Source of the DNA: Actinomyces gaoshouyii
Lineage (GTDB): Bacteria; Actinomycetota; Actinomycetes; Actinomycetales; Actinomycetaceae
Length of the DNA: 64,000 bases
Direction of reading: 5' to 3'
NCBI RefSeq assembly: GCF_002072175.1
Contig: NZ_MVIV01000005.1
Span: forward strand, 67,714 to 131,713
A program made the position numbers and the translations under genes. This document shows positions 21,622 through 26,361 of the stretch, piece after piece. Below the pieces are notes generated by a model, which was not told the origin of the DNA, did no database searches, and saw only the letters and a program-made list of their open reading frames with translations. Positions within the stretch are counted from its first letter, which is position 1; the number at the start of each line of letters is the position of its first letter.

Positions 21622-21957
21622 GTGATCTTCAAGGCCGTGGGGGAGTCCGCGCCCTACCCCGATCACGGGGCGAGGGAGCAACGCGTGTGGGCGACGATCG
21701 CCCCCCGCCAAGTGCGGCTCGACCAGCTCATCACCACTCGCGCCACCCTCGACCTGCGCGATCTGCTCGATGAGGACTCCACCTTCTACGGGGATCTGTT
21801 CGCACATATCGTGTCCTGGCGCGGCGGCCTCTACCTGGAGACGGGCCTGCACCGTGCCCTGCGCGCGGCCCTCCACGGGCGCACCATCATCCACGGCAGG
21901 ATCCTGGAACTCGACGATTCAGGGCGCCCGCTCCTGGCACCGCCCCCGCCGGCCTGA
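21622..21957 (+). CDS. Conserved actinobacterial protein, VapB-antitoxin-like annotation
   Basis: 111 residues. It begins MIFKAVGESAPYPDHG and contains IAPRQVRLDQLITTRATLDL, LLDEDSTFYGDLFAHIVSW and YLETGLHRALRAALHGR, a combination conserved in actinobacteria upstream of a LytR_C protein, as here. Databases usually label the family VapB antitoxin, but no PIN-domain toxin is present, so that label may be misleading. The GTG start follows TAGCAT by six bases, suggesting a leaderless mRNA. Confidence 0.8.
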   Translation: MIFKAVGESAPYPDHGAREQRVWATIAPRQVRLDQLITTRATLDLRDLLDEDSTFYGDLFAHIVSWRGGLYLETGLHRALRAALHGRTIIHGRILELDDSGRPLLAPPPPA

Positions 21958-22042
21958 TCGACTCCCCGCGCCACGTAGCGGACCACCCACTATCATGGGC
22001 CACAGCCCGCGCTCCTGGCACCGGTCCATTAGTCTGGGGAGC

Positions 22043-22663
22043 ATGAGCGCTTCGGACCCTCGATCTGAGTACCGTCGACACCTTCAGCACCGGCAGAAGG
22101 TCGTCATCGGCTCGGTGCTGGTTGCCCTCGCCATCGTCCTCGTGACCAGCATCGGCGTGCACACGGGGCTGCTCCCCTCCTACGACCCGGGCTTCTCAGC
22201 CGATCCCAAGGCCTCCGCGACCTCCGTCGCCCAGCCCTGCCCACCCGCCGGGGCGACCACGGTGGACCTCACCACCATCCAGGTCAGGGTCTACAACGGC
22301 ACCCAGAACGCGGGGCTGGCCGGCGTCGTCGGCGACTCCCTGGAGCGGGCGGGCATGACGATCCTCGAGCGCTCCGACTGGCCCAACGGCGACTACAACG
22401 GCGATGTCGCTATCTCCACATCCCGCGCGGGGCTCACCAACGCCTACTCCCTGGCGCGCGCCTTCAACGGCATCGTCATCGTCCTGCTCGACACCAATCG
22501 GGACCCCACCGACACCTCGGTCTCCGTGATCATCGGCACCGACTACACCTCCGGCCTCATGTCCCCCAATGCCATAGGCGAGCTCACCGCCGGGGAGTCG
22601 ATCAAGGCGCCATCATCCTGCACATCCGTGGCCCCCGAGGAGCCGGTGGCCACCGTCCACTGA
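22043..22663 (+). CDS. LytR_C-domain membrane-anchored protein
   Basis: 206 residues. A short basic cytoplasmic N-terminus, one transmembrane helix (about 24-43) and an extracytoplasmic LytR C-terminal domain (about 78-180: IQVRVYNGTQNAGLAGVV, then SLERAGMTILERSDWP). The domain also occurs at the end of LytR-CpsA-Psr cell-wall ligases; here it is alone. The ATG follows TAGTCT by seven bases with no ribosome site. It is paired with the VapB-like gene, as in many actinobacteria; its role is presumed to be at the cell wall. Confidence 0.85.
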   Translation: MSASDPRSEYRRHLQHRQKVVIGSVLVALAIVLVTSIGVHTGLLPSYDPGFSADPKASATSVAQPCPPAGATTVDLTTIQVRVYNGTQNAGLAGVVGDSLERAGMTILERSDWPNGDYNGDVAISTSRAGLTNAYSLARAFNGIVIVLLDTNRDPTDTSVSVIIGTDYTSGLMSPNAIGELTAGESIKAPSSCTSVAPEEPVATVH

Positions 22664-22770: not shown

Positions 22771-24207
22771 TTATTCGGGGCCCGGACCGGCAGCGCGGGT
22801 CGTGGCCTGCTTCTTGACGCTGCGCCGGGAGTAGGCGGGGCCCTCCAACTCGGTGCCCGCGGGCGCGGAGGCGGGCGAGACCTCCTCGAGGCTCGTGCCC
22901 CGCGCCTTCGAGATGGCTCGCATGGAGTGGTAGACGACGATCGCGGCGCCGGAGCCCAGCGCGATCCCGGAGAAGGTCATATCGCCGATGACCCAAGTGT
23001 AGTCGGCGATCGCCACGACCATCGCGACGGCGGCGGTGTTGAGGTTGACCGGGTCGGAGAAGTCCACGCGGTTCTGCACCCAGATGCGCACGCCGAGCAT
23101 GCCGATCATGCCGTAGAGGATCGTGGCAGCGCCGCCGAGCACGCCTGCGGGAATCGTGTTGATGAGGGCGCCGAACTTCGGCAGCATCGACAGGCCCAGC
23201 GCGCCGATGGCGGCGACGACGTAGGCGGCGGTGGAGTAGACGCGGGTGGCGGCCATGACACCGATGTTCTCGGCGTAGGTGGTGGTTCCCGAGCCGCCGC
23301 CGGCCCCGGCCAGGATCGTGGACAGGCCGTCGGAGATGAGGGCGCGACCGGTGAGGCCGTCCAGGTTCTCCCCGGTCATCGCGGAGACGGACTTCACGTG
23401 GCCGATGTTCTCAGCGATGAGGACGAGCACGACCGGCACGAACAGGCCCATGAGGCTGAGGTCGAAGGAGGGGGCGCGCAAGTGCGGGGCGCCCACCCAG
23501 CCGGCGGCGTCGATGGCGGAGTAGTCCACCTCGCCGCGGACCATCGCGGTGGCGTAGCCCACGAGCACGCCCAGCAGGATCGCCAGTCGCCCCATGATGC
23601 CCTTGAACAGGACGGTGATGAGCAGGATCGCCACGATGGTGACGACGGCGGTCACCGGCGCGGTCCTGACATTGCTCCAGGCAGCGGGAGCCAGGTTGAA
23701 TCCGATGAGGGAGACGATGGCGCCGGTGACGATCGGCGGCATGAGACGATCGATCCAGGTCACGCCCGCAACATGGACGATGGCGCCGATGAGCAGCAGC
23801 GAGGCGCCCGCCATGATGATGCCGCCCTGTGCGAGCGAGGCCCTGGCCTGGTCGAGGGGCGCCCCGCTCTTGGCGTCGAAGCCGGTGACGGCGGCGATCG
23901 GCGCGATGAGGGCGAAGGAGGATCCCAGGTAGGAGGGCAGGCGCCCGGAGGTCACCACGAGGAACAGCAGAGTGCCCAGTCCGGTGAAGAACAGCGTCGT
24001 CGCCGGGTCGAAGCCGGTCAGGAGGGGCACGAGGAAGGTCGCGCCGAACATGGCGACGATGTGCTGCATGCCGATGCCGACGGTGCGCGGCCATGAGAGG
24101 CGCTCCGAGGCGGTGACGACGGCGCCGGGCCTGATGGATCGTCCGTCCCCATGGAGGGACCAGCCCCGGAAGAGCGGGGATGAGGACGATAGGGGCGATG
24201 AGGGCAC
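22771..24207 (-). CDS. uraA: Uracil permease, NCS2/UraA family
   Basis: 478-residue proton symporter with about 14 helices. Family signatures: a first helix region with GMQHIVAMFGATFLVPLLTG, the substrate-binding segments LIAENIGHVKSVSAMTGENL (key Glu in AENIG) and AGAGGGSGTTTYAENIGVMA (second key Glu). This pattern is that of uracil transporters rather than xanthine ones. GTG at 24207 is selected for AGGAG seven bases upstream; longer versions would add low-complexity sequence. The C-terminal 50 residues are hydrophilic. Works with upp (34761) in uracil salvage. Confidence 0.88.
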   Translation of the reverse strand: MPSSPLSSSSPLFRGWSLHGDGRSIRPGAVVTASERLSWPRTVGIGMQHIVAMFGATFLVPLLTGFDPATTLFFTGLGTLLFLVVTSGRLPSYLGSSFALIAPIAAVTGFDAKSGAPLDQARASLAQGGIIMAGASLLLIGAIVHVAGVTWIDRLMPPIVTGAIVSLIGFNLAPAAWSNVRTAPVTAVVTIVAILLITVLFKGIMGRLAILLGVLVGYATAMVRGEVDYSAIDAAGWVGAPHLRAPSFDLSLMGLFVPVVLVLIAENIGHVKSVSAMTGENLDGLTGRALISDGLSTILAGAGGGSGTTTYAENIGVMAATRVYSTAAYVVAAIGALGLSMLPKFGALINTIPAGVLGGAATILYGMIGMLGVRIWVQNRVDFSDPVNLNTAAVAMVVAIADYTWVIGDMTFSGIALGSGAAIVVYHSMRAISKARGTSLEEVSPASAPAGTELEGPAYSRRSVKKQATTRAAGPGPE

Positions 24208-24331
24208 TGCGCTTCTCCTGTCGCGGGTTGGGGAAGGACTAGCGGCGTCGCCTCCCGTGGGTTCGGGGGCGCTCGCGGGTTCCTCCGCCAAGAGGATGCG
24301 GGCGGCGGCCCGCCGGGGTGAGGATACTGCC

Positions 24332-24643
24332 ATGGCCTCGCCGCGCGCCCCGTTCCCGGGAACCGAGTCCCTCGATCCGACGCAGATCCTCTCCGGACCC
24401 GGCTACCAGGCGCCCCCGGTGCGCACCGACGGCGTCGCCACGGCGGCGCTCCTGTGCGCGATCCTCTCCTTCATCCCCCTGGTGGGGCTGGCCGCCGCGG
24501 GCCTGGGCATCTGGGCGCTCCGGCGGCTGCGGCGCTCCTACGGCACCGGCCGGACGCTTGCGCGCCTGGCCATCGTCGTGGGGGCAACGGCGTCCGTCCT
24601 CCAGCTGTGGATCCTCGTGGCCATCGTGGCGACCGCAGGATGA
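24332..24643 (+). CDS. Small DUF4190-like membrane protein
   Basis: 103 residues: a hydrophilic N-terminus (1-33, with TQILSGPGYQAPP), then two helices (about 37-60 and 78-100) separated by a basic loop RRLRRSYGTGRTLAR. The sequence VATAALLCAILSFIPLVGLAAAGLGI is typical of DUF4190 proteins of actinobacteria. Function unknown. Divergent from the uracil permease and in line with the amidotransferase-like gene. Confidence 0.65.
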   Translation: MASPRAPFPGTESLDPTQILSGPGYQAPPVRTDGVATAALLCAILSFIPLVGLAAAGLGIWALRRLRRSYGTGRTLARLAIVVGATASVLQLWILVAIVATAG

Positions 24644-24725: not shown

Positions 24726-25460
24726 ATGAAGCCCTTCATCATGGTATCGACGCGTCCCGAGATCAGCGCCGCCGAGGACGAGTACGAGTCCTTCCTGTCC
24801 CTGGGCCGGATCGATCGCGCGGACCTGACCCATGTGCTGCTCGAGGAGGTCGACTTCCTCGGCTCCTTCAACGCCGAGGACGTCTCCGGCGTCCTCATCG
24901 GCGGAAGCCCCTACAACGTCTCCACGCCCGAGGCCTCCAAGAGCCGCTCCCAGCTGCGCATCGAGGAGCAGGTGAGCGAGTTGATCGCCGTCGCCCTGAC
25001 CAAGGGGGTTCCCGTCCTGGCCACCGGGTTCGGCCTGGAAGTCCTGGCCGCCCACCTCGGCACGGCCACGTCGGCCGAGTTCGGTCAGACCCTGGGCACA
25101 GCGGAGGTGTTCCTCACCGAGGAGGGGCGCCACGACCCGCTCCTGGAGGGGATGCCGCCCTCCTTCACCGTGCTCGTGGGGCACCATGAGGGCGCCGTGG
25201 GCGTGCCCGAGCACGCCGTGCTGCTCGCCTCCTCCCCAGACTGCCCCGTGCAGATGCTCCGGGTGGGCTCCTCGGTCTACGGCACCCAGTTCAATCCCGA
25301 GCTCGATGCCGACCGCTTCGCCCAGCGCATAAGCATCTACACCGACGCCGGCTACGGGCATCCCGGGCAGGTCGACGAGCTCCTGCGCGTCGTGCGCGGC
25401 GGGGAGCACGTGGCGGGCCGGATCATCGCCCGCTTCTTCGAGCACTTCGCCCGGGACTGA
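24726..25460 (+). CDS. Degenerate class I glutamine amidotransferase-like protein
   Basis: 244 residues with the whole class I GATase fold, but catalytic residues are missing. The nucleophile elbow reads VLATGFGLEVL, with Gly101 where the Cys of the usual GxCYG motif should be. The His-Glu pair reads GTQFNPELD, with Asn190 in place of His and Glu192 kept. The rest (IGGSPYNVSTPEASKS, LVGHHEGAV, SSPDCPVQMLRVG) is well conserved and the frame is intact, so it looks like a maintained pseudo-enzyme that binds a ligand or partner. The ATG follows TAGGGT by seven bases (leaderless). Convergent with the nucleoside phosphorylase. Confidence 0.8.
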   Translation: MKPFIMVSTRPEISAAEDEYESFLSLGRIDRADLTHVLLEEVDFLGSFNAEDVSGVLIGGSPYNVSTPEASKSRSQLRIEEQVSELIAVALTKGVPVLATGFGLEVLAAHLGTATSAEFGQTLGTAEVFLTEEGRHDPLLEGMPPSFTVLVGHHEGAVGVPEHAVLLASSPDCPVQMLRVGSSVYGTQFNPELDADRFAQRISIYTDAGYGHPGQVDELLRVVRGGEHVAGRIIARFFEHFARD

Positions 25461-25509: not shown

Positions 25510-26361
25510 TCAGCCCAGAGTGGCCAGAGCGGCCTCGATGACGTCGCAGATCACGACCGGCGCGGGCCTGTGAGCCACGGGCATCCCGACCGGCGGGGTG
25601 ACGGCGGCGCGGCGGCCCGCCGCCCGGGCGGCGCTACGACGGCCCGAGCCCGGGCGCGGGGGCGCGCCCGCGATCGAATCGACGTAGAGCAGGCCCGCTA
25701 CCTTGACCCCCCGCACCGCCAGGGCCATGGCCTCGGCGACCGTATCCATGACAACGACGTCGGCGCCGAGCCCCCCGAGGACCGCGGCCTCGGCGCGGCC
25801 GGGGCGCACCGGCCCGGGGACGAGTGCGGCGACGGCGCTGCCGCTGACGCCGTCGACACCGGCGACGACCTCCGTGAGGGGCTCATCCCAGGTGGCCTCG
25901 ACGGGGCCGGTGGCGGGGAAGAGAGGGGTGCCGGAGAGGTTGAGGTGGTCGCCCATGGCGAGGAGGTCCCCGAGCTGCTGGGATCCCAGTGAGGAGGCGC
26001 GGCCGACGAGGAGGGCGGCGCGAACGCCGGCGCCCGCGGCGATGCGGGCGAAGGCGGTGGTGCGGCGGGCGGCGCGGCCCTCGAACAGGCAGGTGCGGCC
26101 GCGGGCGACGAGCACGCCGAGACCCCCGCGGTCGTAGGACATGAGGGAGTCCTCCTGACCCGAGGAGCCGGGCGCGGAGACACCGGGGAGGAAGGAGAGG
26201 CGGACGCGGGAGGACGGGCGCCCCCAGGCGTCGTCGAGGTCGGTCAGGAGCGCGGGCTCGGCGATGACGAGCAGGTCGTGGCGGGCACGGCCCGTGGCGA
26301 GAACGATGGAGGCGCCTGCGGGGTCCTCGTCCCATGTTCCGGCGGCGGGGGACGTTGCCAC
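25510..26361 (-). CDS. Purine nucleoside phosphorylase family protein
   Basis: 283 residues of the trimeric purine nucleoside phosphorylase/MTAP family: phosphorolysis of purine nucleosides to base and ribose-1-phosphate. Supporting segments are MGDHLNLSGTPLF (substrate loop, like TDHINLTG), SYDRGGLGVLVARGRTCLFEG and VVMDTVAEAMALAVRGVKVAG (like STVPEAI in the family). The Ala/Arg-rich stretch GSGRRSAARAAGRRAA near the C-terminus is unusual and may be a disordered loop. Fits the salvage genes elsewhere in the window. Divergent from hrpB. Confidence 0.8.
   Translation of the reverse strand: MATSPAAGTWDEDPAGASIVLATGRARHDLLVIAEPALLTDLDDAWGRPSSRVRLSFLPGVSAPGSSGQEDSLMSYDRGGLGVLVARGRTCLFEGRAARRTTAFARIAAGAGVRAALLVGRASSLGSQQLGDLLAMGDHLNLSGTPLFPATGPVEATWDEPLTEVVAGVDGVSGSAVAALVPGPVRPGRAEAAVLGGLGADVVVMDTVAEAMALAVRGVKVAGLLYVDSIAGAPPRPGSGRRSAARAAGRRAAVTPPVGMPVAHRPAPVVICDVIEAALATLG

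Follow-up and report, generated by a model that had tools for sequence, protein, structure and literature searches.

Genes at the locus

The window, that is, the whole stretch of 64,000 nucleotides of Actinomyces gaoshouyii DNA that was analyzed, contains a single open frame for a protein of 244 amino acids at positions 24726-25460 on the forward strand. Pfam, NCBIfam, alignment, and a structure model identified the product as a class I glutamine amidotransferase (GATase) homologue with Gly101 and Asn190 at the two catalytic positions, and proteins of this form are called pseudo-GATases below. A gene for a small, two-helix, DUF4190-like membrane protein (24332-24643, forward strand; PF13828, 31.0 bits, under the cut-off of 35) lies 82 bp upstream on the same strand and is the probable operon partner of the pseudo-GATase gene. 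An NCS2-type nucleobase permease gene (22771-24333, reverse strand; its annotated start is probably too far upstream) runs divergently in the same syntenic slot, and locus comparison placed the outer border of this slot at a gene for a LytR_C-domain protein (21770-22663, forward strand).

On the other side, a purine nucleoside phosphorylase (PNP) homologue is encoded on the reverse strand at 25510-26361. Motif comparison showed that it no longer has the GSG loop, the GRTH His, the YxT portion of GPxYxT, or GMST, all of which we take to be catalytic; another type of PNP, found in other Actinomyces, retains them. An orthologue was present in 47 of 49 Actinomyces genomes, with the gene split in one (G012), and its dN/dS of 0.035-0.06 was stricter than that of DnaK calculated with the same script. 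The PNP homologue is thus a second putative conserved pseudoenzyme.

The neighbours were compared at 39 loci that carry a pseudo-GATase gene. An NCS2 permease gene lay within 1.3 kb in 31 and was missing beside it in eight, and a DUF4190-like open frame was found upstream in 33 (29 by tblastn and four by an upstream scan) and not found in the remaining six. In the A. ruminicola clade the permease gene was not adjacent and the DUF4190-GATase pair stayed together. Six loci of sister genera were chosen for their active GATase; four had an adjacent NCS2 gene, three of these (L187, L188, and L193) with DUF4190 in the same NCS2/DUF4190/GATase order and one (L191) without it, while L192 and L197 had neither gene. 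NCS2 genes occurred in 200 of the 213 Actinomycetaceae genomes, so that their presence carries no signal and adjacency alone does; co-occurrence with NCS2 was discarded as a functional test for this reason.

Other arrangements were also seen. In G002, which has neither a pseudo-GATase nor an active GATase gene, PNP-like, DUF4190-like, and NCS2 genes stood in a row on one strand (L182, G002:C1:727000-737000). At L084 and other loci, the interval between the pseudo-GATase and active GATase genes often also contained genes for a protein of the Sir2 family and for one that binds NAD(P); neither gene was found at the loci of the window's clade.

Replacement of the catalytic Cys and His

The first-pass annotation had described an intact class I GATase, free of frameshifts, in which the nucleophile Cys has become Gly101 and the active-site His has become Asn190, and had given ACYG and QFHPELD as the motifs of active homologues. 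Translation, alignment, and Pfam confirmed this description: the window protein reads ATGFG and QFNPELD at the two places, within one open frame. The codon of Gly101 (25026-25028, forward strand; 24726 + 3 x (101 - 1)) aligned with the nucleophile Cys, and that of Asn190 (25293-25295, forward strand; 24726 + 3 x (190 - 1)) with the catalytic His. The Glu two residues past the His position (E192) was invariant in 67 pseudo-GATases and 73 active proteins.

The Pfam GATase model (PF00117) scored the window protein at 30.7 bits, above the gathering cut-off of 22.8. The top NCBIfam model was PRK07567 (NF005743) with 243.4 bits, which is below the equivalog cut-off of 264. All pseudo-GATases scanned with this model fell under the cut-off (190-251 bits), and an active paralogue cleared it with 321.5 bits. 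With both Cys and His replaced, the window protein would have no enzyme activity.

Distribution and origin of the Gly/Asn pair

A search of 59 relatives found orthologues in 36 genomes of the genus, the window's own included, and the others shared 60-94% identity with it. TG and QFNPE were present in all 36, and the matches reported for the orthologues listed were free of internal stops. The strict QFNPE pattern, which pseudo-GATases with other residues flanking Asn could escape, gave 76 matches in 213 Actinomycetaceae genomes, of which 74 were pseudo-GATases and two were a PabA-PabB fusion. Carriers were 48 of the 49 Actinomyces genomes and 26 genomes of three other genera (3 in g31, 18 in g47, and 5 in g50), the latter found by the pattern, so that their Asn was given by construction and their Gly was not. 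When all sequences were inspected, both residues had been lost to Gly and Asn in 74 of 74 carriers. An alignment of this kind had been suggested in the first-pass annotation, with Cys and His kept by close orthologues as the sign of an error or of strain-specific decay; Gly/Asn was found instead in 48/48 Actinomyces carriers and 26/26 elsewhere.

Among 171 distinct homologues, 98 had Cys/His, 73 had Gly/Asn, and none was mixed or otherwise, and only these two forms occurred in a sample of 40 regions that had been gathered through homology, independently of the motif. The pseudo-GATase motifs were also sought in 84,980 species genomes, from which the window's own genome or a very near one was possibly left out, and 39 loci were returned, all in records titled as Actinomycetaceae genera except for one MAG titled only Actinomycetales. 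In an order sample of 396 genomes, the seven QFNPE-pattern matches were all within Actinomycetaceae; in a phylum sample of 396 genomes, the matches were the window gene and four other places, none of them a recognisable GATase. Named carriers include A. denticolens, A. timonensis, A. israelii, A. oris, and A. naeslundii. The elbow around Gly was variable (TGFG, TGVA, TGYG, and TGSA), and Thr100 was replaced by Ser in one carrier (G188).

In a tree of 149 proteins, the 67 pseudo-GATases lay on one side of a branch with an SH-aLRT of 97, and the clade was still held in a quick tree after both motif stretches had been removed (SH-aLRT 90). A tree with more active relatives, for which the Actinomyces rows of both kinds were thinned and 113 of 171 rows kept, separated 38 pseudo-GATases from 75 active rows with an SH-aLRT of 96. 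These trees indicate that Cys-to-Gly and His-to-Asn were replaced once, long ago, and then kept by one lineage. The AU test with pseudo-GATases and family-active rows held together gave a p-AU of 0.438, and the split may lie either inside or before Actinomycetaceae.

The two other QFNPE matches, L198 (G119:C3) and L199 (G121:C1), come from a sister genus, and from a reading of their sequence they appear to be fused PabA-PabB proteins, in which the GATase domain carries LGIGLGHQ and GLQFNPES. The identical pair of replacements, Cys to Gly and His to Asn, arose independently in this fusion.

Active relatives in the same genomes

In the 49 Actinomyces genomes, a close active paralogue was present in 38 and a divergent active type (LCFG) in 10, the window's genome included, and no genome had both. 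Each of the 48 carriers was accompanied by exactly one active type, and G002, the only Actinomyces without the pseudo-GATase gene, also lacked either active type; these counts are not independent, because the 10 LCFG cases come from a small number of lineages. The LCFG type, of which G000:C15:210775-211656 is an example, occurs where the close paralogue is missing. Independence of the window's clade from an active partner was considered and was withdrawn for Actinomyces, since the genomes without the close paralogue carry the LCFG type. The active gene and the pseudo-GATase gene lie on different contigs in the window's genome.

Outside Actinomyces, a full-length active relative was found in 18 of the 26 carriers and was not found in G110, G165, G166, G172, G174, G193, G196, and G210, of which the first seven were at least 99% complete and G210 was 85% complete. 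An active relative was thus found in every Actinomyces carrier but not in all carriers elsewhere. In G111 and G112, the two genes stood in tandem on one strand, with the pseudo-GATase gene first.

The finding of one active type in 48/48 Actinomyces carriers favours some link to the active relative. The main rival to the explanation that we prefer (see below) is a heteromer: the inactive protein would pair with the active paralogue encoded in its own genome and tune it, in the manner of the AdoMetDC prozyme, the fold of which differs from that of GATases. The tandems in G111 and G112 and the absence of both partners from G002 agree with such a pairing, as do the Actinomyces counts, but the active protein occurs without the pseudo-GATase in many genomes of the family, the two genes are apart in the window's genome, and the eight carriers without an active relative found make an obligate heteromer unlikely outside Actinomyces. 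We regard this explanation as possible, with odds clearly against it.

Structure model and conserved columns

The predicted structure of the window protein showed a full GATase fold with a mean pLDDT of 87.3, in which residues 191-230 had low confidence (block means 62-69). The nearest folds were TM1158 (Z 24.5), Arabidopsis gamma-glutamyl peptidase 1 (GGP1, 23.8), and DnfC (23.1); SpuA (21.4) and PuuD (20.8) were matched as well, and the Z values to many GATases were 20-24.5. The pockets of these and similar class I GATases accept gamma-glutamyl amides. Binding of a nucleotide or a partner, or a shift to regulation, had been proposed in the first-pass annotation. Nucleotide binding gained no support, because the nearest folds are class I GATases, with no pointer to a nucleotide among them, and only the neighbouring nucleobase permease hints in that direction; partner binding or a regulatory function is plausible in view of the conserved neighbours. 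According to the PDB titles, gamma-glutamyl intermediates are present in the structures of GGP1 H192N and SpuA H221N, and glutamine is present in that of a GMP synthetase with Cys changed to Ala, so a fold altered in this way can retain its ligand.

We also compared the conserved columns of 67 pseudo-GATases and 73 active proteins, after nine active rows of very distant sequence, namely the LCFG type and L050, had been set aside. Columns 100 (T/A), 101 (G/C), 190 (N/H), 7, and 63 were conserved differently, the differences at 7 and 63 being conservative. Conservation of at least 90% in both sets was found for 29 columns, which include G55, P62, H153, C173, P174, Q176, R179, Q188, F189, P191, E192, and D194 and span the HxE stretch, CPxQ, and QFxPE-D; by analogy with class I GATases, they would form the substrate pocket. 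Eight columns conserved in the active proteins, including Y102, A149, and A156, were loose in the pseudo-GATases. Most of the other columns that active relatives conserve were kept. Judged from the columns that were kept, pseudo-GATases most likely retain binding of a glutamine-like or gamma-glutamyl amide. Column 228 was His in 97% of the pseudo-GATases and in 0% of the active proteins.

Within the pseudo-GATases, 24 of 244 columns were invariant at pairwise identities down to 33%, with G101 and N190 among them. The nucleophile elbow is strained, and Gly may be favoured there, so the invariance of Gly alone is no proof of ligand binding. Requirements of the fold may instead explain why both residues never vary, and the appearance of the same pair in the PabA-PabB fusion also tells against reading it as a sign of ligand binding. 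A further explanation is an enzyme rebuilt for another reaction that would use Thr100, His153, Cys173, or His228. The near-invariant Thr100 in place of Ala and the His at 228 would suit it, although the region of His228 was modelled poorly; His153, which was invariant, and Cys173, which was present in 97% of the pseudo-GATases, are common to the active enzymes and hence not new. To our knowledge, no class I GATase works without its Cys, which counts against this explanation, and we consider it unlikely.

Selective constraint

The dN/dS of the window gene was 0.175 against A. denticolens, 0.19 against A. timonensis, and 0.38 against G033; values were taken from these three close species, and the all-pairs medians, with saturated distant pairs mixed in, were set aside. 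At the same locus, the values were 0.13-0.17 for the permease and 0.33-0.43 for the LytR_C protein. The dN/dS check that the first-pass annotation had recommended thus pointed to purifying selection. A single clade, Gly/Asn in 74 of 74 carriers, and a dN/dS of 0.18-0.38 together amount to shared descent under purifying selection, as expected of a conserved pseudoenzyme, and the pseudo-enzyme reading is well supported by the single origin, the fixed replacements, the purifying selection, and the retention of most conserved columns.

A pseudogene was rejected on the genus-wide presence of the gene, its open frames, and these dN/dS values. Slow decay of a functionless gene that lingers would agree with the absence of the gene from G002 and with the scores under the NCBIfam cut-off, but frames were open in 48 of 49 Actinomyces genomes, dN/dS was 0.18-0.38, and the same two replacements were fixed down to 33% identity, so that this explanation is very improbable. 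A sequencing or assembly error in the window's genome, for which no support was found, was rejected as having a negligible chance, the identical residues being present in 74 genomes and in the named strains.

Proposed origin and role

The explanation that we prefer begins in an ancestor of part of the Actinomycetaceae, in which a PRK07567-type class I GATase gene would have stood beside the genes for an NCS2 permease and a DUF4190 membrane protein. Tandem duplication of this GATase gene would have left one copy as an enzyme, and in the copy in the old slot the nucleophile Cys would have changed to Gly and the catalytic His to Asn, once, and been kept since. The active GATase that some sister-genus loci have in this slot and the tandems in G111 and G112 indicate that catalysis was probably lost in one tandem copy. 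The altered copy would be unable to make the gamma-glutamyl thioester and would have retained the fold and most conserved columns; it would most likely bind a glutamine-like or gamma-glutamyl amide without cleaving it and serve in sensing, scaffolding, or regulation. Its probable partner in this role is the DUF4190 membrane protein, and the permease is a possible one. We favour this explanation as a whole, a non-catalytic amide-binding sensor, scaffold, or regulator born from a tandem copy, by a modest degree, with the loss of activity, the ligand, the operon, the partner, and the role all inferred from the comparisons above. A more speculative idea, to which we give little credence, is that the two pseudoenzymes (GATase and PNP), both under purifying selection, sense ligands at the transporter in Actinomyces and, together with the DUF4190 protein, control the gating of the adjacent nucleobase permease.

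Relation to known systems

The closest described family is PRK07567/NF005743, which gave the best full-length match; unlike its members, the pseudo-GATases scanned score below the cut-off and lack Cys and His. The fold of Arabidopsis GGP1 and of bacterial SpuA/PuuD is the same over nearly the whole chain. In GGP1 H192N and SpuA H221N, an identical His-to-Asn exchange was engineered and Cys is still present, whereas the pseudo-GATase has lost Cys as well, and naturally.

Human CPS1 has a class I GATase domain that naturally lacks the nucleophile, with Cys changed to Ser294 (PMC4655335). In CPS1 the inactive GATase is a domain of the synthetase, whereas the window protein stands alone, has also lost His, and uses Gly/Asn. 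The trypanosome AdoMetDC prozyme is described as a catalytically dead paralogue that activates the live one (PMC5201418). There, as here, a dead copy exists beside an active one, but in some pseudo-GATase lineages no active one was found.

In a literature search that covered few subscription journals, no paper was found to describe a free-standing, catalytically dead GATase of class I from the PRK07567 family, to name PRK07567, or to link DUF4190 to a glutamine amidotransferase. Dead GATase domains are thus already known from CPS1, and a stand-alone one of the PRK07567 type is apparently new.

The protein offers a stand-alone bacterial pseudoenzyme with a birth that can be read from tandem copies and with a fixed pair of replacements, and active copies occupy the same slot in sister genera of its carriers. 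Human oral species, namely A. oris, A. naeslundii, and A. israelii, carry it. The same pair of replacements in the unrelated PabA-PabB fusion hints that class I GATases may commonly give up catalysis in this way while their fold is preserved.
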